A stretch of DNA of 56,464 nucleotides from an uncultured Chryseobacterium sp. (GTDB taxonomy: Bacteria; Bacteroidota; Bacteroidia; Flavobacteriales; Weeksellaceae). Positions within the stretch are counted from its first letter, which is position 1, and each line of letters starts with the position of its first letter. The stretch lies in contig CAJYXJ010000057.1 in NCBI GenBank assembly GCA_913778085.1, forward strand, positions 1-56,464, in the 5' to 3' direction. Below are positions 46,358 to 55,608 of this stretch, piece by piece. The notes beneath the pieces are model-generated. The model saw only the letters and a list, made by a program, of their open reading frames with translations, was not told the DNA's origin and searched no databases. The translations under genes were made by a program, and so were the position numbers.

Positions 46358-46954
46358 ATGGTTATATCCGAAGAAATTTTATTGGAACATGGAGCAATTC
46401 TGCAGGATTTTGCGCAGGAGGAATTTATTTTTAGGGAAGGCGGTTTTTCACAGTATTATTTCCAGATCAGAGCTGGTGTGGTAAAAATTAATAATTTTTT
46501 TGAAGACGGAAAAGAATTTGTCCATGGCTTTCCCTATGAAGGGCATTGCTTTGGCGAGACTTATCTCCTTACCGATAAGCCATATGCCGTAAATGCCATA
46601 GCCGTTACGGATTGTACCGTGATTAGGCTTGATAAAAAGTCGTACCTTGATCTTATCCATCAGCAGCCGCAGATCTTTTTTAAAGTCAGCCGGTACAGTG
46701 CAGAGCGTTTGCATTTCCGCTATGTGATTTCTTCTTTCCTGGCTATTCTCGATCCGCAGATCAGGATCCAGAAACTTCTGGACTACCTGAAAGGCTATTT
46801 CGGCTACCAGGAAAAGTACAGTTTCCTCGTTCCTTTCACAAGATACCAGTTGGCATCTCTTACCGGGATGCGGGTAGAAACCCTGATCCGCACCGTAAAA
46901 AAAATGGAAAAGCTGGATATTTTAAGGATCGACAATACGAAAATTTATTATTAA
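46358..46954 (+). CDS. Crp/Fnr-family transcription regulator
   Basis: A 198-aa regulator. N-terminal cyclic-nucleotide-binding-like beta-barrel (~15-120): 'DFAQEEFIFREGGFSQYYFQ', 'IRAGVVKINNFFEDGKEFVH', 'EGHCFGETYLLTDKPYAVNA', 'DCTVIRLDKKSYLDLI'. A helical dimerisation stretch follows, then a C-terminal winged helix (~150-198) with 'FTRYQLASLTGMRVETLIRT' as the recognition region and 'KMEKLDILRIDNTKIYY' at the end. It lacks the four-cysteine Fe-S motif of Fnr and the Arg/Ser pattern for cAMP is not clear, so the ligand is unknown. It is single, between the broken gene and the ilv leader; control of ilv genes or of the molybdenum island is possible but not shown. Confidence 0.9.
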   Translation: MVISEEILLEHGAILQDFAQEEFIFREGGFSQYYFQIRAGVVKINNFFEDGKEFVHGFPYEGHCFGETYLLTDKPYAVNAIAVTDCTVIRLDKKSYLDLIHQQPQIFFKVSRYSAERLHFRYVISSFLAILDPQIRIQKLLDYLKGYFGYQEKYSFLVPFTRYQLASLTGMRVETLIRTVKKMEKLDILRIDNTKIYY

Positions 46955-47401
46955 CGGATAAATAAAGTGAAATCGCAGTAAAAACATGTTAGAAAGCTTA
47001 GAAAAGTTGAATTTTCGTCATGTTAGCCTTTAAAATGAAATTCTTTTTATTCAATTTAAGATAATACCATCTAAATCCTGATGATATTCTGCTTTTTTTA
47101 TTTTTTTGTTAAATCAATAGAAAATAATTATTATCGGAAATTTATGGTAAAAGAAAACAGGAATATCTGTGAAAGTATATGCTATAACTATTGTAGAAAT
47201 TTCCTGCATATACTGTTTCTAAGAAAGGATCATCAAAAGTTCAGACATCGTAATTTTTGCAAGTGCCATTCCTTGAAAATCAATATTTTAGAAATAATAG
47301 TTGAATTAATGAATATCGTAAAATTTATTCTGTTTTTGCGATATTCTGTAGCTTAAACGAATAATTTTTGATAAAAAGTCAGTGTTTTTGAAAATTAATT
47401 A
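46955..47401. other. AT-rich gap before the ilv leader
   Basis: About 450 bases. A 91-codon ORF at 47081 is low-complexity, rich in Phe/Tyr/Ile/Asn and lies in AT-rich sequence; I do not accept it. No terminator was seen after the Crp-like gene. Confidence 0.4.
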
Positions 47402-47409
47402 TACATTTG
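47402..47409 (+). promoter_or_regulatory. -7 box of the ilv operon promoter (TACATTTG)
   Basis: Exact match to the Bacteroidetes TANNTTTG consensus, ending 17 bases before the leader-peptide ATG. The upstream -33 TTG at the expected distance is missing; TTTTTG motifs at 47365-47370 and 47385-47390 are off-spaced. Confidence 0.55.
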
Positions 47410-47426
47410 TACCAGAAATATAAAAA

Positions 47427-47498
47427 ATGAACCACACGATTATCATTATTGTCATTATTATCATTATCGGATTGCCGGTGATGAGTAATGGCTCGTGA
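47427..47498 (+). CDS. ilv leader peptide (23 aa, Ile/Val-rich)
   Basis: A short ORF: ATG at 47427, TGA at 47496-47498. After MNHT come ten consecutive Ile/Val codons (nine Ile, one Val), then G-L-P-V-M. Its position between promoter and the terminator hairpin, with a branched-chain amino-acid operon following, is that of an attenuation control peptide. When charged Ile- or Val-tRNA is scarce the ribosome would stall in the Ile run and leave the downstream antiterminator free. The last six codons contain the 5' part of the antiterminator. Confidence 0.85.
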   Translation: MNHTIIIIVIIIIIGLPVMSNGS

Positions 47499-47538
47499 TA
47501 ATTTGTTGAAACCAGATAACACAAACCATTCTCATCAC
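47478..47538 (+). promoter_or_regulatory. Antiterminator pairing of the ilv attenuator
   Basis: GTGATGAG-T-AATGG (47478-47491), inside the end of the leader ORF, is complementary to CCATTCTCATCAC (47526-47538), the ascending arm of the terminator: 8 + 5 base pairs with one bulged T. The two structures exclude each other. A ribosome completing the leader peptide would cover 47478-47491 and let the terminator form; a ribosome stalled on Ile codons would not. Confidence 0.82.
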
Positions 47539-47558
47539 GGGAATGGTTTTTTTTATTT
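47523..47558 (+). terminator. Attenuator terminator of the ilv operon
   Basis: AAACCATTCTC (47523-47533) pairs with GGGAATGGTTT (47539-47549; one G-U pair) around ATCAC, followed by eight Ts. It lies 51 bases before ilvE and 24 bases after the leader stop codon. Confidence 0.88.
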
Positions 47559-47599
47559 CCTGAATTTAAAAAATAATAAAATATAAAAACCAGTACAGC

Positions 47600-48502
47600 A
47601 TGTATTACAATGATGACAGTGTTCTCTTTTTCGATGGAGAGTATGTAAAAGCAAAAGACGCAAAAACCGATTTATATGGGCAATCCTTACACTATGGCTA
47701 TGCAGTGTTTGAAGGCATCAAATCTTATAAAACAACAAATGGCGCGCGGATTTTCAAAGCGGAAGAACATTACGACAGGCTCAGGAAATCAGCCGAAGCC
47801 ATGATGATCCCTTTCAGCTATTCTACAGAAGAAATGGTGTTGGCTACCTACAGGTTGCTGGAAATGAACAAACTGGAAAACGCCTATATCCGCCCGATTG
47901 TAATCTGCTCCCCAAATATGGCTTTATCCAAAGGACAGAAAAGCTACCTTGTCATTGAGGTCTGGAACTGGGACAACGGCTATCTCGCCAACAAAATGAG
48001 GATCATGACATCTTCCTTCCAACGCCCGAATCCAAAAGCCTTTAAAGTGGAGGCAAAGGTGAGCGGTCATTATGTAAATTCCATTCTGGCGTGCCAGGAA
48101 GCCAAAGACAAGGGTTTCGACGAAGCATTGGTGCTTGACGAAAACGGAAATGTAGCGGAAAGTTCCGGTGCCAACGTATTCTATGAAAAAGACGGAAAGC
48201 TTTTTACACCGGCCAAAGGTAACATCCTTCCGGGAATCACACGGGCTACAGTCTTTCAGATCTGCGATAATCTGGGAATCCCGACAGAGGAGAAATTTTT
48301 CAGACCGGAAGAAATGCAGGGCGCTGATGCGGGGTTCTTCTGCGGAACCGCGGCCGAAATCGTCGCACTGGATTCTTTAGATAACGTCCCTTTCAAGCTT
48401 AATTGGGAAAACAGCCTTTCCGCCAAAGTACAGCAGGCTTACCGCCATCTTGTGCTGGAAGAGGATTATGCTTACCTAAAAAACCAGCCTCAATATGTGT
48501 AA
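47600..48502 (+). CDS. ilvE: Branched-chain amino-acid aminotransferase
   Basis: Class IV PLP aminotransferase, the last step of Ile, Val and Leu synthesis. The 300-aa protein shows '[18 protein letters not shown]', '[17 protein letters not shown]', the PLP lysine Lys153 in '[19 protein letters not shown]', '[18 protein letters not shown]' and '[19 protein letters not shown]', ending with the '[20 protein letters not shown]' region. First structural gene of the operon after the attenuator; overlaps ilvD by eight bases. Confidence 0.96.
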
Positions 48503-50177
48503 TATTTTGAATAAATATTCCAGGATCCTGACGAAAGATCCGACCCAGCCTGCTACCCAGGCCATGTTCTACGGAATCGGATTTCAGGAGGAAGACTTTG
48601 ATAAAGCACAGATCGGCATCGCTAGCATGGGTTACGACGGAAATACCTGCAATATGCACCTCAACAGCCTTGCTGAAACTGTTAAGCAGGGGGTAAAGGA
48701 ACAGAATCTTGTTGGACTGATGTTCCATACCATCGGAATCAGTGATGGTATGACCAACGGTACCGACGGAATGCGGTATTCGCTGGTAAGCCGCGACATT
48801 ATCGCCGATTCCATAGAAACAGTATGCGCAGGTCAATATTATGACGGACTGATTACCGTACCGGGCTGCGACAAAAATATGCCGGGCTCCCTGATCGCTA
48901 TGGCAAGGCTGGACAGGCCTTCCATCATGGTCTACGGAGGAAGTATTGCGCCGGGGCATTACAAAGGCGAGGATCTCAATATCGTTTCTGCTTTTGAAGC
49001 CTTGGGAAACAAAATTGCAGGCAAGATCTCCGAAGAGGATTTTCAGGGTGTCGTAAAAAATTCATGTCCGAGCGCAGGGGCCTGTGGCGGAATGTACACG
49101 GCAAATACCATGGCTTCTGCTATTGAAGCATTGGGCATGAGCCTGCCGTATTCATCCTCTTATCCCGCACTCAGCCGAGAAAAGAAAGAGGAATGCCGGT
49201 TTGCCGGACATTATATGAAGATCCTTCTGGAAAAGGACCTAAAGCCTTCAGATATTATGACGCCAGAAGCCTTTGAAAATGCTCTACGGCTGATCATGAT
49301 CCTGGGTGGAAGTACCAATGCCGTTCTTCATTTTATTGCCATTGCAAAAGCGATCGGTCATGATCTTACCCTGGACGATTTTCAAAGAATCAGTGACGAA
49401 ACACCTTTCCTGGCCGATCTGAAGCCAAGCGGAAAATACCTGATGGAAGACCTGCATAAAGTAGGCGGTGTTCCGGCAGTGATGAAATATCTGCTGGAGC
49501 TGGGACTTCTTCACGGCGATTGCCTTACGGTCACCGGTAAAACAGTGGCGGAAAACCTGGAACACGTAACGTCGATCATTGACAGAGAACAGAACATTAT
49601 CCGGGATATTAAAAATCCGATCAAGGAAACCGGGCATATCAGGATCTTGTACGGAAACCTGGCCGAAAAAGGTTCGGTGGCGAAAATTACCGGAAAAGAA
49701 GGAAGCTACTTCCGGGGAACAGCAATTGTGTTTGATGGTGAAAAAGAATTCATCAAAGGAATCGAAGACGGGAAAATCCGGGAAGGAAATGTAGTGGTTA
49801 TTAAAAACGAAGGCCCGAAAGGAGCACCCGGAATGCCGGAAATGCTGAAGCCGACCTCTGCACTGATGGGCAGCGGTTTGGGAAAAAACGTAGCATTGAT
49901 TACAGACGGCCGCTTTTCTGGAGGAACCCACGGTTTTGTCGTCGGCCACATTACACCCGAAGCGTTCTGTGGCGGACTGATCGGACTCATTAAAGATGGC
50001 GATCTCATTGAACTTGATGCCGAAAAAAACACCATCAATGCCTTATTGTCAAATGAGGAGATAGCCGCAAGAAAAGCAGAATTTCAGCAGCCTGATTATA
50101 AAATAAAAAAGGGAATCCTCTACAAATACGCAAAATCGGTAGCAGATGCCTCGCAGGGCTGTGTTACGGATTTATAA
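48495..50177 (+). CDS. ilvD: Dihydroxy-acid dehydratase
   Basis: Iron-sulfur dehydratase, third common step of Ile/Val synthesis. The 560-aa protein has the cluster cysteines in '[14 protein letters not shown]' (~Cys52), '[18 protein letters not shown]' (~Cys125) and '[20 protein letters not shown]' (~Cys191/197), the signatures of the IlvD/Edd family with a [2Fe-2S]-type arrangement. '[20 protein letters not shown]' near the C-terminus is also conserved. The ATG at 48495 overlaps the end of ilvE. A 128-base gap with no clear terminator follows. Confidence 0.96.
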
Positions 50178-50305: not shown

Positions 50306-52051
50306 ATGAATACAACAACCCTATTAAAAACAGAAAATAATAAGGCACCGCAACTGGAAACGGTAGAATTATCTGGTTCACGTGCTCTTCTGGAAGCTTT
50401 GCTGGCGGAAAATGTAAATACGGTTTTCGGATATCCCGGCGGGGCCATCATGCCTATCTATGACGCACTGTACGATTATTCCGAAAAGCTGAAGCATATT
50501 TTGGTCCGTCATGAGCAGGGCGCAATACATGCTGCCCAGGGATTTGCCCGCACTTCCGGAAAAACAGGCGTGGTCTTTGCCACCAGCGGCCCCGGAGCTA
50601 CTAATCTTGTAACCGGACTGGCAGATGCGATGATCGACAGCAACCCGATAGTCTGTATCACAGGACAGGTATTCGCTTCGCTTTTGGGAACGGATGCCTT
50701 TCAGGAAACGGATGTCATCAATATTACTACGCCGGTAACCAAATGGAACTATCAGGTGACCGATGCAACGGAAATCCCGGAAGCTATTGCCAAAGCCTTT
50801 CACATCGCGGCAACCGGCCGGCCCGGGCCCGTCCTGATCGATATTACCAAAAATGCACAGCTGCAGCTGTTTGAATATGCAGGATATAAAAAATGCACCC
50901 ACATCCGGAGCTACCGTCCGGAGCCGGAAATCAGAAATGAATATATCGAACGGGCTGCGGAATTGATTAATCAGGCAAAAAAACCTTTTGTGGTATTTGG
51001 ACAGGGCGTAATCCTCGGAAAAGCAGAGGAAGAATTCAAAGCTTTTATTGAAAAAGTGAATCTTCCGGCGGCAGCCACAGTGATGGGGCTGAGCGCTTTG
51101 CCGACCGATCATAAATTGCATGTCGGAATGCTGGGAATGCACGGCAATTATGCCCCGAACGTGATGACCAATGAGTGTGATGTGCTGATCGCCGTCGGAA
51201 TGCGTTTTGACGACCGGGTAACGGGCCGCCTGGACAAATACGCCAAACAGGCAAAAGTGATTCATCTGGATATTGATCCCGCCGAAATCGATAAAAACGT
51301 AAAAACAACCGTCCCGGTATGGGGCAACTGCAAAAAAACGCTTCCGATGCTCACGGCTCTTCTTCAGAAAAATGATCACTCGGACTGGCTGCAGCAATTC
51401 CGCGAACTGGAAAAAGAAGAAATCAGGGAAGTTATTCAGAATGAACTGAACCCTGTTACCGATACGATGACCATGGGTGAAGTGATTAAAGTATTGAATG
51501 AGCTGACCAATGGTGATGCCATTATTGCCACTGATGTTGGTCAGCACCAGATGGTTTCCTGCCGGTATGCCCAATTTAACCGGTCCAGATCCAGCGTGAC
51601 CTCGGGCGGTTTGGGAACCATGGGCTTCGGGTTGCCTGCAGCAATCGGTGCATGGTATGGAGCACCGGAAAAAACCGTGGTAGCTATTATCGGTGACGGT
51701 GGCTTCCAGATGACGATTCAGGAACTGGGAACCATCATGCAGTTTGGTGCCAAAGTAAAAATCCTGATCCTCAACAATGAGTTCCTCGGAATGGTAAGGC
51801 AATGGCAGCAGCTGTTCCACGACCGTAGATATTCCTTCGTCAATATTACCAGTCCGGATTTTGTAGCGGTGGCAAAAGGATATTACATCGAAGGACAAAG
51901 AGTATCGGAGCGAAAAGATCTGAAAACGGCAATGGAAAGCATGCTCAGCCATGATGGAGCTTACCTGCTGGAAGTGATGGTCGGAAAAGAGAATAATGTA
52001 TTCCCGATGGTTACGCAGGGCTCGTCCGTTTCAGAAATCCGTTTAAAATAA
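50306..52051 (+). CDS. ilvB: Acetolactate synthase large subunit
   Basis: Thiamine-diphosphate enzyme that forms 2-acetolactate or 2-aceto-2-hydroxybutyrate. The 581-aa protein begins the family region at 'ELSGSRALLEALLAENVNTV'. Key residues: catalytic Glu in 'LVRHEQGAIHAAQGFARTSG' (~70), 'GPGATNLVTGLADAMIDSNP', FAD-binding middle domain ('GMLGMHGNYAPNVMTNECDV'), and the ThDP motif GDGGFQM...N ('IGDGGFQMTIQELGTIMQFG' to 'LILNNEFLGMVRQWQ'). Paired with the regulatory subunit IlvN downstream. Confidence 0.96.
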   Translation: MNTTTLLKTENNKAPQLETVELSGSRALLEALLAENVNTVFGYPGGAIMPIYDALYDYSEKLKHILVRHEQGAIHAAQGFARTSGKTGVVFATSGPGATNLVTGLADAMIDSNPIVCITGQVFASLLGTDAFQETDVINITTPVTKWNYQVTDATEIPEAIAKAFHIAATGRPGPVLIDITKNAQLQLFEYAGYKKCTHIRSYRPEPEIRNEYIERAAELINQAKKPFVVFGQGVILGKAEEEFKAFIEKVNLPAAATVMGLSALPTDHKLHVGMLGMHGNYAPNVMTNECDVLIAVGMRFDDRVTGRLDKYAKQAKVIHLDIDPAEIDKNVKTTVPVWGNCKKTLPMLTALLQKNDHSDWLQQFRELEKEEIREVIQNELNPVTDTMTMGEVIKVLNELTNGDAIIATDVGQHQMVSCRYAQFNRSRSSVTSGGLGTMGFGLPAAIGAWYGAPEKTVVAIIGDGGFQMTIQELGTIMQFGAKVKILILNNEFLGMVRQWQQLFHDRRYSFVNITSPDFVAVAKGYYIEGQRVSERKDLKTAMESMLSHDGAYLLEVMVGKENNVFPMVTQGSSVSEIRLK

Positions 52052-52183
52052 GAATAAATTTAAAAAGATAAGATTAAAAATCTTGGTAAAATCAGATTGT
52101 TAAATAAGTATAAGTTTTAAAGCATAGTTGCTTTGAACATTAATCTAAACCTTAATCTTAGCTTCAGCCTAAATCAATCAGTC

Positions 52184-52774
52184 ATGGAAAAGAAAGAATT
52201 TACCATCACCTTATATACTGAAAACTCGATCGGACTGATCGGCCGGATCGCCGGGATATTTTCCCGCCGGAAGATCAACATCGAAAGCCTGAATACTTCA
52301 CCTTCGGAGGTGGAAGGTATCCACCGGTTTACTTTGGTCATTACCGAAAATGAAGACATCGTCAGAAAGCTTTGCCGTCAGCTGGAAAAGCAGATCGATG
52401 TCCTGAAATCCTATTACAATACGGATGACGAAATCGTATGGCAGGAACAGGCCCTCTACAAAGTTCCGGCAGAAGTCGTTACGGAAAAAGTTTATGTGGA
52501 AAGGCTGCTCCGGCAGTATGGTGCTTCTACGGTAGTGATCCGCCAGGATTATATTGTCTTTGAGACCGCGGGACACCGGGAAGAAATCGACCGGCTGACC
52601 GAAGAGCTCAATAAATACGGGCTCATCGAATTTGTACGCGGGGCCCGTATCGCCATCATCAAAAACAGCGCGGGCATCCACGAAAAAGTACTTCAGTTTG
52701 AAAACCGGGAGCCTTCCCCTCATATCGTCGAAAACGAATATCTCGATCAGCGGGACAATGTTTTTACCATGTAA
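52184..52774 (+). CDS. ilvN: Acetolactate synthase regulatory (small) subunit
   Basis: ACT-domain subunit that activates IlvB and gives valine feedback control. The ATG at 52184 starts 'MEKKEFTITLYTENSIGLIG', the normal N-terminus (196 aa); the frame is open further upstream in low-complexity sequence. ACT domain ~1-80: 'SIGLIGRIAGIFSRRKINIE', 'SLNTSPSEVEGIHRFTLV'. The C-terminal half ('ERLLRQYGASTVVIRQDYIV', 'FETAGHREEIDRLTEEL', 'FVRGARIAIIKNS') is the IlvH-type second domain, fitting the long form of small subunit. Confidence 0.94.
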   Translation: MEKKEFTITLYTENSIGLIGRIAGIFSRRKINIESLNTSPSEVEGIHRFTLVITENEDIVRKLCRQLEKQIDVLKSYYNTDDEIVWQEQALYKVPAEVVTEKVYVERLLRQYGASTVVIRQDYIVFETAGHREEIDRLTEELNKYGLIEFVRGARIAIIKNSAGIHEKVLQFENREPSPHIVENEYLDQRDNVFTM

Positions 52775-52852: not shown

Positions 52853-54334
52853 ATGTCAAATTACTTCAATACCTTATCACTCAGAGAACAGCTTCACCAG
52901 TTAGGTCAGGCGGAATTTATGGACCATTCGGAGTTTTCCGACGGTGTTTCCGTATTAAAAGGAAAAAAAATCGTTATCATAGGCTGCGGTGCGCAGGGAC
53001 TTAATCAGGGGCTTAACCTCAGGGACAGTGGACTTGATGTCTCCTACGCATTACGACAGGAGGCCATCGATCAGAAAAGGGATTCCTGGAAAAATGCCAC
53101 GGAAAAAAGTTTCCTGGTAGGAACCTACGAAGAACTGATTCCTTCGGCCGACCTGGTTATTAATCTTACGCCGGATAAGCAGCATACTGCCGTAATCAAT
53201 GCAGTACAGCCTTTAATGAAAGAGGGAGCAACGCTGTCCTATTCGCACGGTTTCAATATTGTGGAGGAAGGCATGCAGATCCGCAAAGACCTGACGGTTA
53301 TTATGGTGGCTCCGAAGTGCCCCGGTTCCGAAGTCCGCGCCGAATACCTTCGGGGTTTCGGTGTTCCGACACTTATTGCCGTTCATCCTGAAAATGATCC
53401 GCAGGGAAAAGGCTGGGAACAGGCCAAAGCCTATTGTGCGGGAACCGGCGGCCATAAGGCAGGAGTTTTGAAATCCTCTTTCGTGGCAGAAGTAAAATCC
53501 GACCTGATGGGAGAGCAGACGATCCTGTGCGGACTCCTGCAAACCGGCTCGATCCTTTCTTTCGACAAAATGGTGGAAAAGGGAATCGATGCAGGGTACG
53601 CTTCCAGACTGGTGCAATACGGCGTTGAGGTGATTACCGAAGCTCTGAAGCACGGCGGGGTAAGCGGAATGCTGGACCGGTTGTCTAACCCGGCGAAATT
53701 AAAAGCGTTTGAACTTTCGGAAGAACTTAAAGAGATCATGCGTCCTTTGTTTCAGAAGCACCAGGATGACATTATCTCGGGTGAATTTTCCAAAACCATG
53801 ATGGAAGACTGGGCCAATGGTGATGCCAACCTGTTGAAGTGGCGCGCGGAAACCGGCGAAACGGCTTTTGAAAAGACTCCGGCTGGAGATGTACAAATCC
53901 CCGAGCAGGAATATTTTGACCATTACCTGCTGATGTCGGCATTTATCAGAGCCGGGGTGGAATTGGCTTTTGAAACCATGGTGGAAGCAGGGATCAAACC
54001 GGAATCTGCGTATTACGAGTCTTTGCACGAAGCTCCGCTTATCGCCAACACCATTGCCCGGAAAAAGCTGTTTGAAATGAACCGGGTAATTTCTGATACC
54101 GCCGAATACGGCTGTTATCTTTTCGATCAGGCCTGCAAGCCGTTGCTCGCAGATTTCATGAAAAAAATCGATACGGATGTGGCGGGGAAAAATTTCAATC
54201 AAGGAAAAGATGGCGCGGTAGACAACGCACAGTTGGTGCACGTAAACGAAGTGTTAAGAAACCATCCGGTAGAAGTCGTGGGCAGAAAACTGCGTCAGGC
54301 TATGACGGCTATGAAATCCATCAAAACCGTTTAA
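52853..54334 (+). CDS. ilvC: Ketol-acid reductoisomerase, long (class II) form
   Basis: NADPH-dependent isomerisation/reduction of 2-acetolactate. The 493-aa length with a duplicated C-terminal knotted domain is the E. coli-like class II form. Nucleotide-binding: '[20 protein letters not shown]' (~39-58) with '[19 protein letters not shown]', where the Arg/Ser positions fit NADPH. Metal-binding acids occur in '[20 protein letters not shown]' (~206-225) and in '[20 protein letters not shown]'. The gene has its own 78-base gap after ilvN including an inverted repeat. Confidence 0.96.
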
Positions 54335-54345
54335 AAAAAGAGAAA

Positions 54346-55608
54346 ATGAGTGAGACGGCTACATTTCCCACGTTGGAAGCAGTAAAAAAAGCCCGGAAGA
54401 GCATAGAGAGCGTTGTCAGCTACACGCCGTTGCAATACAGCCAGCGGCTGTCGGAGAAATTCGGGGCCCGTATTTTCCTGAAAAGGGAAGACCTGCAGCC
54501 GGTGCGCTCTTACAAGCTGCGGGGCGCATACAATAAGATCAACAGCCTGTTTCTGGAAGGAAGCACTTCAGATGGCATCGTCTGTGCCAGCGCAGGGAAC
54601 CATGCGCAGGGGGTTGCTTTTTCCTGTCGCCAGCTCGGTATCAGGGGAACCATCTTTATGCCGGTTACTACCCCGAGGCAGAAATTGGAGCAGGTAGAAA
54701 TGTTCGGAGGAAACGCCGTGGAGGTAAGGCTGACCGGAGACACTTTCGACGCTTCAAAAGCGGCAGCCCTTGAATTTGCAGCCCTTTCCGGTGCGGCTTT
54801 TATCCATCCTTTCGATGATGTCCGGATTATTGAAGGACAGGCAACCCTGGCCCTGGAAATCCTAGAACAGCAGCAGGATCAGATCGATTTCGTCTTTATT
54901 CCGATCGGTGGCGGTGGATTGGCTTCCGGGATTGCAACGGTATTTAAGACGCTCTCTCCGGAAACCCTGCTTGTCGGTACCGAGCCTAAAGGAGCTGCTT
55001 CCATGAAAGCTTCCCTGTTCAATAATGCCAATACGGAACTTCCGGAAATTGATGGCTTCGTGGATGGAGCTGCCGTAAAAAGGGTAGGAGACCTAAATTT
55101 CGAGATCTGTAAAGACGCACTTTACGACTGTATCGCGGTAGACGAAGGCAGGGTTTGCGACACCATCCTTCAGCTGTATAATAAAGATGCCATTGTGCTG
55201 GAGCCTGCAGGCGCCCTGTCGATTTCCGCTCTCGATCAGTACCGGGATCAGATCAAAGGCAGAAATGTGGTCTGTATCGTGAGCGGCAGCAACAACGATA
55301 TTACCCGGATGGAAGAGATCAAGGAGCGCGCATTGCTGTACAAAGGACTTAAACATTATTTTATGGTAAAATTTCCGCAACGCCCCGGCGCCCTCAAGGA
55401 TTTTGTGCTGAACGTCCTGGGTTCCGATGACGACATCACCCATTTTGAATACACCAAGAAAAATTCGCGGGAAACCGCCCTTGCCGTTGTCGGTATTGAA
55501 CTTTCCGACCCTTCAGGTTTCAGCGGCCTCAAAACCCGTATGCAGGAGCTCGGCTATTTCGAATCCTATCTTAACGATAACCCGGATGTGCTGAATATGT
55601 TGGTCTGA
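54346..55608 (+). CDS. ilvA: Threonine dehydratase, biosynthetic
   Basis: PLP enzyme giving 2-oxobutanoate for isoleucine synthesis. The 420-aa protein has the PLP lysine Lys57 in 'QPVRSYKLRGAYNKINSLF', 'SAGNHAQGVAFSCRQLGI', the glycine loop 'IPIGGGGLASGIATVFKTL' (~185-203), 'VLEPAGALSISALDQY' and 'VSGSNNDITRMEEIKERALL'. A single C-terminal ACT-like domain (~340-420: 'HYFMVKFPQRPGALKDFVLN') gives feedback control; enzymes with two such domains are ~500 aa. It completes the ilvE-D-B-N-C-A operon, 11 bases after ilvC. Confidence 0.95.
   Translation: MSETATFPTLEAVKKARKSIESVVSYTPLQYSQRLSEKFGARIFLKREDLQPVRSYKLRGAYNKINSLFLEGSTSDGIVCASAGNHAQGVAFSCRQLGIRGTIFMPVTTPRQKLEQVEMFGGNAVEVRLTGDTFDASKAAALEFAALSGAAFIHPFDDVRIIEGQATLALEILEQQQDQIDFVFIPIGGGGLASGIATVFKTLSPETLLVGTEPKGAASMKASLFNNANTELPEIDGFVDGAAVKRVGDLNFEICKDALYDCIAVDEGRVCDTILQLYNKDAIVLEPAGALSISALDQYRDQIKGRNVVCIVSGSNNDITRMEEIKERALLYKGLKHYFMVKFPQRPGALKDFVLNVLGSDDDITHFEYTKKNSRETALAVVGIELSDPSGFSGLKTRMQELGYFESYLNDNPDVLNMLV

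Follow-up and report, generated by a model that had tools for sequence, protein, structure and literature searches.

The isoleucine and valine biosynthetic operon ilvE-D-B-N-C-A of an uncultured Chryseobacterium sp. is very probably controlled by a leader-peptide transcription attenuator sensing charged tRNA-Ile, a reading to which we assign a probability of about 0.9. The element lies on the plus strand of a 56,464-nucleotide stretch of DNA, the whole of which was analysed and is here called the window, and it combines a short open reading frame (ORF) rich in isoleucine codons, an intrinsic terminator in front of ilvE, and RNA segments able to form three alternative helices.

It is proposed that transcription starts, probably, a few bases past position 47409, and that the leader ORF is translated while the RNA is being synthesised. 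When isoleucine is plentiful, the ribosome would reach the stop codon and cover segment 2 of the leader, and the terminator (helix 3:4) would form before ilvE. When isoleucine is scarce, the ribosome would stall in the isoleucine run and break the 1:2 hairpin; the freed segment 2 would then pair with segment 3, giving the antiterminator, and the polymerase would continue into the operon. In a leader that is not translated, 1:2 would form and the terminator would be favoured.

Leader ORF, RNA helices and operon

The leader ORF (ilvL-like; MNHTIIIIVIIIIIGLPVMSNGS) occupies positions 47427-47498, between an ATG (47427-47429) and a TGA stop codon (47496-47498), and has 23 codons, of which codons 5-14 (47439-47468) read I I I I V I I I I I. 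The initial annotation, made from the sequence alone, had described a 23-residue ORF with ten successive Ile/Val codons, and this agrees with the sequence, the run consisting of nine Ile and one Val. Nowhere else in the window, in any of six frames, do six or more Ile/Val codons follow one another. Of 885 ORFs of 10-50 codons that run from an ATG to a stop (each nested ATG counted separately), the leader ORF alone attains ten Ile/Val codons out of ten, the runners-up reaching 6/10, and such an ORF exceeds what is expected by chance. The predicted leader peptide would be encoded, then, by a short ORF in which codons for an amino acid made by the operon are clustered. No Shine-Dalgarno-like sequence was seen by eye before it.

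Upstream of the ORF, the box TACATTTG is found at 47402-47409, as had been claimed for a -7 element, and conforms to the type TAnnTTTG, which we take to be the -7 consensus of Bacteroidota promoters. Since this motif occurs 45 times in the window (both strands counted), the box taken alone is poor evidence for a promoter. It is, however, kept at a distance of at most 40 nt from the leader ATG in 32 of the 40 relatives described below, and in 31 of those 32 it lies 16-21 nt 5' of the ATG. No convincing -33 element was seen at the window's leader.

The predicted 142-nt leader RNA (47415-47556, with an assumed 5' end at 47415) folds at -42.1 kcal/mol (z = -5.05; none of 200 shuffles as low) into the terminator and one long hairpin made from the Ile-codon run and its flanks. 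In this 1:2 hairpin, which has thirty pairs when 47428-47515 is folded by itself, segment 1 (47434-47470), a protector strand consisting mostly of the Ile-codon run, is predicted to pair with 47475-47506. Segment 2 (47478-47491; GTGATGAGTAATGG), the antiterminator strand, can form 13 pairs with 47526-47538, in agreement with the complementarity to the first terminator arm noted beforehand. Those bases belong to segment 3, the 5' arm and loop of the terminator (47523-47538), and they are common to the antiterminator and terminator helices, so that each would exclude the other. Segment 4 (47539-47556) comprises the 3' arm, which ends at 47549, and the U run. The terminator itself, AAACCATTC..GAATGGTTT at 47523-47549 followed by a T run, is confirmed in the sequence (-12.7 kcal/mol, z = -6.36 against 200 shuffles), and thus a predicted intrinsic terminator stands between the leader and the first structural gene. 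Because the antiterminator lies within the 3' strand of the Ile-run hairpin, the leader is predicted by folding to hold the classical three-helix design, with a 1:2 protector, a 2:3 antiterminator and a 3:4 terminator. The initial annotation had recognised a classical attenuator architecture, and its elements stand where it placed them, give or take about a base; the long 1:2 helix, which it had overlooked, came from folding.

Fifty bases separate the terminator hairpin from the start of ilvE (branched-chain aminotransferase, 47600-48502), which is followed on the same strand by ilvD (dihydroxy-acid dehydratase, 48495-50177), ilvB and ilvN (acetolactate synthase large and small subunits, 50306-52051 and 52133-52774), ilvC (ketol-acid reductoisomerase, 52853-54334) and ilvA (threonine ammonia-lyase, 54346-55608). 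These genes make up the full isoleucine/valine pathway, and both their order and the start of ilvE bear out the earlier statement that ilvE follows 51 bases after the terminator, to within a base. On the other side of the attenuator, a gene for a CRP/FNR-like regulator (46358-46954, same strand) was observed, with all NCBIfam scores below the cut-off. Its end lies about 570 bases 5' of the terminator hairpin, and on account of this distance and of the conserved leader, the hairpin was rejected as an ordinary terminator of an upstream gene.

Conservation of the leader and of its pairings

A search of genome contigs with IlvE gave a first set of 43 loci. Most belong to Chryseobacterium or Epilithonimonas, and one or a few each to Cloacibacterium, Flavobacterium, Winogradskyella, Ferruginibacter and other Chitinophagaceae. 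Three of them (L034, L040 and L043) were excluded owing to contig ends or upstream DNA that was too short. Each of the 40 loci whose upstream DNA is long enough has, upstream of ilvE, a short ORF containing six or more Ile/Val/Leu codons in ten and then, within 450 nt, an intrinsic terminator. The conserved Ile/Val-run ORFs for which the initial annotation had proposed to search are thus found, as Ile/Val/Leu-rich leaders. These leaders have 17-35 codons (18 codons in 20 of the 40), and the reading frame and length past the Ile/Val run differ among relatives. In the common GFRW-type leaders, the stop codon falls within the 5' half of the antiterminator. It had been claimed that the antiterminator lies within the last six codons of the leader, translation to the stop directly blocking segment 2. 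This applies to the window; in leaders of the GFRW type, taking into account the position of the stop codon, it would be the footprint of the ribosome at the stop, rather than codons running through the antiterminator, that blocks it.

The wider distribution was assessed in a second set of 141 further loci from 126 genomes, comprising 33 regions upstream of IlvE and 108 upstream of IlvD, the latter drawn from 107 of the 145 genomes in which IlvD was found; of the remainder, 35 belong to family f16 (43 genomes in all), the others being G112, G000 and G095. A leader with a terminator was detected at 57 of the 141 loci, versus 1 of 141 reverse strands and none of 1410 shuffles; by gene, 26 of 33 IlvE and 31 of 108 IlvD loci passed. 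With a slightly wider hairpin rule, 57 of the 126 genomes passed. The window's own family (f1) gave 17 of 18 genomes, G232 being the exception, followed by f22 (17/20), f2 (9/16), f3 (3/5), f8 (3/6), f4 (2/5), f15 (1/9) and f16 (1/8), and no genome passed the leader and terminator rule in f5 (0/5), f12 (0/5), f11 (0/4) or f17 (0/3). Second-set passes that are unconvincing by eye include L058, L102, L105, L158, L167 and L185, and the misses L050, L051 and L052 have an Ile/Val-rich ORF and no terminator by the rule used. In the more distant families, the Ile/Val leaders are spelled with different letters.

Some loci of this set deserve separate mention. L050 and L051, both upstream of IlvE in family f8, carry Ile/Val-rich ORFs of the form ...GIL.LVIIVIINRASGRW without a terminator by the rule used, and possibly employ another mode of control. 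In family f22, similar leaders occur directly upstream of ilvD (L106, L111-L120, L123, L125, L129, L130, L132 and L134), with the types MLSxIISLVIIQVIG..YRPGK, MITRTIITVIINVIGTKYRPGK and MKNSVIPVVIINVIGY..., and most of them carry a GCCTTCCC..GGAAGGC terminator; they form a separate conserved family of ilv leaders. The IlvE match of L069 and L070 holds one TGA and one TAA, perhaps because it extends beyond the end of the gene.

Pairing was scored in an alignment (A1) of the window and 31 of the 40 first-set loci (32 sequences, 31 of them distinct), with the distant loci left out and the window row beginning at 47428, one base into the leader ATG. Pairing of the terminator extends to 100% of cells, against 35-66% when the arms are slid as a control, and three of its pairs are changed on both sides, a number reached by 5 of 500 shuffles. 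The antiterminator is paired in 95.4% of cells (slid controls 33-60%; 3 of 500 shuffles as high), and its covariation score is matched by 7 of 500 shuffles; changes on both sides affect one pair, with no excess over shuffles (311 of 500 as many). For the whole 1:2 structure, 85.6% of cells are paired (slid controls 34-62%), the inner helix reaching 94.1% and the outer helices 57-80%; this pairing is not above that of letter shuffles (306 of 500 as high), and two-sided changes are few. Close relatives and G-U exchanges abound in the alignment and restrict what the covariation test can show.

As variation within the genus is too small to decide on helix 1:2, an arm-swap test across lineages was used, which is a stronger test than the pairing counts of A1. 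Its input consisted of 74 elements, namely the window, 35 of the 40 first-set loci and 38 second-set candidates, near-duplicates and implausible-looking candidates being omitted; L059, having no perfect hairpin, was dropped, which left 73. With 45 distinct terminator arms drawn from these elements, the duplex between each leader and its own arm has a mean of -14.3 kcal/mol, versus about -9.8 for permuted partners, and none of 10,000 permutations reaches the observed mean (kinship being uncorrected). On average, the best partner of an antiterminator is therefore the terminator arm of its own element. On a given arm, 12.7% of foreign leaders outdo the leader that belongs to it, and L089 and L098 run against the trend, their own arm pairing worse than the arms of others on average. 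Covarying stems among relatives had been put forward as a check of the attenuator, and the outcome favours it: the antiterminator and terminator pairings are kept, and across lineages the fit to the own partner is best on average.

These data bear on a simpler reading, by which the hairpin would be a terminator of the ordinary or the constitutively partial kind, with an Ile-rich ORF that is incidental or selected as RNA only. The terminator is certainly strong by itself (z = -6.36), and the leader codons overlap paired bases, so that some of the conservation of isoleucine may reflect RNA pairing. Nevertheless, all 40 relatives keep the ORF open and rich in Ile, Val and Leu, though its length and frame after the run vary; distant families keep Ile/Val leaders written in different letters; the antiterminator matches its own terminator arm better, on average, than those of others; and the nearest upstream gene ends at 46954, some 570 bases from the hairpin. 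We consider this reading very unlikely.

Predicted ribosome stalling and the amino acid probably sensed

To model the attenuator, a ribosome was positioned on each codon in turn and the RNA beyond its footprint was folded, the footprint edge being set at +13. In the window, the terminator probability is 1.0 without a ribosome, 0.9-1.0 up to Ile8 and 0.7 at Val9; it falls to 0.0-0.1 with the A site at Ile10-Ile13, rises to 0.6 at Ile14 and is 1.0 from Gly15 to the stop. The antiterminator probability is approximately the mirror image. Footprint edges from +12 to +15 give a similar outcome, Val9 and Ile14 moving most, and for a stall at Val9 antitermination ranges from 0.07 to 0.74 depending on the footprint assumed. 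Under this model, stable read-through is predicted only when the ribosome stalls within the Ile run, Ile10-Ile13 being the most effective codons, and in the window a stalled ribosome is predicted to break the protector hairpin, an effect that varies among relatives.

The same modelling was applied to 34 elements (near-duplicates L012, L016, L018, L019 and L022 were omitted, as was L044, and L033, without a perfect terminator hairpin, was unscored). At edge +13, 26 of the 34 dip below a terminator probability of 0.5 at some codon, and all 34 return to 1.0 at the stop codon; in the window and in these 26 elements at equilibrium, the control codons are therefore so placed that a stall would open the antiterminator. 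In L037, which belongs to the 26, the terminator is already weak when no ribosome is present. No switch is seen at equilibrium in the other eight (L004, L027, L030, L036, L038, L039, L041 and L042). In L003, L006, L011, L015, L020, L021, L023 and L024, the probability is also 0.5 or lower at Ile6 or Ile7.

When the RNA is folded as it stands before synthesis of segment 4, pairing of the terminator arm with upstream sequence has a probability of at least 0.7 in all 34 elements if the ribosome is in the run, and of at most 0.4 in 33 of 34 if it is at the stop, L024 being the exception. Without a ribosome, this upstream pairing reaches at least 0.7 in 14 of the 34 elements and 0.1 in the window, which indicates that the protector helix is effective in the window and not everywhere. 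Stalls at Ile6-Ile8 lead to termination in the equilibrium model and to antitermination in the pre-segment-4 model, and whether such stalls count would depend on kinetics outside these models.

The nature of the signal can also be approached from the codons. In the 25 leaders that can be aligned (the window and 24 of the 40 first-set loci), Ile is present at codons 6, 7, 10 and 13 in every case, at codon 14 in 24 and at codon 5 in 23, and codon 9 is Val in 24. Codons 8, 11 and 12 switch among Ile, Leu, Val, Ser and Phe, with Leu at codon 11 in 14 leaders and Val at codon 12 in 19, and all residues after codon 15 vary. The invariant Ile pattern would fit isoleucine as the main signal, an argument that is not clean, because the same bases (codons 10, 13 and 14) are also paired in the RNA.

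It had been stated that starvation for isoleucine, and also for valine, opens the operon. The modelling is consistent with the first part; as to the second, a single Val stands at the edge of the effective stretch. A response to valine or leucine besides isoleucine, which would be a variant of the tRNA-Ile attenuator and not an alternative to it, can be entertained tentatively. Enterobacterial ilv leaders are multivalent, Val9 is kept in 24 of 25 leaders, and Leu11 and Val12 are common inside the effective stretch among relatives. In the window, however, the effective codons 10-13 are all Ile, the outcome at Val9 hangs on the footprint, and codon 9 (GUC) is also paired in helix 1:2.

Taking the attenuator as the preferred reading, a more general proposal may be offered as a conjecture that we hold to be rather doubtful. 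Leader-peptide attenuation would be a common and little described control of Bacteroidota amino-acid operons, acting through leaders that lack a visible Shine-Dalgarno sequence. In this lineage the ilv leader would sense isoleucine almost exclusively, and its codon run would serve at the same time as the protector strand, with only stalls in the second half of the run stably opening the operon and the first half acting as a delay.

Other candidate leaders and known attenuators

Two further candidate leaders were found in the same genome. Upstream of hisG, a his leader ORF (MKPIFLTVHHYHHHLC) is accompanied by a candidate antiterminator strand (-13.6 kcal/mol) and a terminator, the element lying on the minus strand at 2592-2715 of the reverse complement of L197 (G000:C20:156500-160500); TACATTTG ends 18 nt before its ATG, much as at the ilv leader. 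Upstream of trpE, a trp leader ORF with three Trp codons (MFSNSNNIWWWLPNSSSGLRLLSCC) likewise precedes a terminator and a candidate antiterminator (-13.7 kcal/mol), on the plus strand at 2403-2547 of L200 (G000:C67:18500-21300). Here the TACATTTG box ends just 4 nt before the ATG, a distance too short for it to act as -7 box for an RNA that includes this ATG preceded by a leader. From their sequences, the His-rich leader is a probable his attenuator and the Trp leader a probable trp attenuator, and a single organism would then probably control three pathways in the same way, which makes the attenuator reading of the ilv element safer. At the Rfam gathering score, the trp and his leader regions of this genome have no match, RF01692 included. 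No short ORF with a Leu run and a terminator was found before a leuA-like gene (L196; 700 bases also inspected by eye), and no leader was found immediately upstream of two homoserine dehydrogenase genes (L198 and L199).

The his and trp leaders also bear on whether the element could sense the nascent peptide or a ligand, as an arrest peptide or a riboswitch, instead of the rate of isoleucine decoding. Arrest peptides are able to control attenuators, and the leader does encode a short peptide that is conserved and includes a hydrophobic stretch; yet residues 8, 11 and 12 vary, as do all past codon 15, and in this genome ORFs rich in His and Trp occupy the equivalent position ahead of hisG and trpE. 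A riboswitch is further opposed by the Rfam search of the whole window, which gave zero matches at gathering score, with RF00506, RF00514, RF01692, the T-box and other riboswitches among the families covered. Sensing of this kind is, in our judgement, scarcely credible.

At a permissive Rfam threshold, the region 47300-47700 gave weak matches only, the best leader family being that of the E. coli thr operon leader (RF00506; 25.9 bits, E 0.0078). The match is in register with the window's leader and terminator, and its score is far below the gathering score of 55; identity with this family was rejected and the likeness judged convergent. The E. coli thr leader has Ile-rich codon repeats, and the resemblance is probably due to both elements having such repeats and a terminator.

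The enterobacterial ilvGMEDA and ilvBN, leu, his and trp operons are controlled by leader-peptide attenuators. The element described here resembles them in its leader codons for the product amino acid, in its three alternative helices and in the terminator before the first structural gene. It differs from the enterobacterial ilv, leu, his and trp leaders in that its run is almost purely Ile and would itself form the protector strand, in the lack of a Shine-Dalgarno-like sequence (by eye), and in having no Rfam leader family at gathering score.

Within the phylum, a transcriptome study of Flavobacterium psychrophilum (2021) presents strong clues for leader-peptide attenuation upstream of amino-acid operons (PMC9723704), which is the same proposed mechanism in related flavobacteria; the passage concerned names no operon, and the words 'ilv' and 'isoleucine' are absent from the main text of that article. 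In a map of Bacteroides thetaiotaomicron, short ORFs reminiscent of leader peptides are mentioned (PMC7366714), and the Bacteroid-trp motif (Rfam RF01692), whose name points to trp genes and which has no match in the window at gathering score, is listed as a probable cis-regulatory RNA of Bacteroidetes (PMC2864571). No description of an ilv attenuator in Bacteroidota was found in the open-licence literature searched, which does not prove its absence. Vitreschak et al. (2004) reportedly predicted some attenuators in Bacteroidetes/Chlorobi. The initial annotation knew of no characterisation of the element in bacteria of this type; this may hold for this exact one, although attenuation as such has already been reported for Flavobacterium psychrophilum in the article cited above. 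Leader-peptide attenuation is a classical mechanism that seems to be little described in the phylum, and the ilv element is a conserved and well-formed instance of it.

For the specialist, the result is satisfying more than surprising. It provides a concrete and testable candidate for a switch responding to isoleucine, in a phylum where the regulation of amino-acid synthesis seems to have received little description. To our knowledge, the absence of a Shine-Dalgarno sequence is the rule in this phylum, and the element suggests that leader-peptide attenuation works without one at the leader ORF. In addition, it supplies unannotated small ORFs, and designs for reporters, for many flavobacteria and related families.
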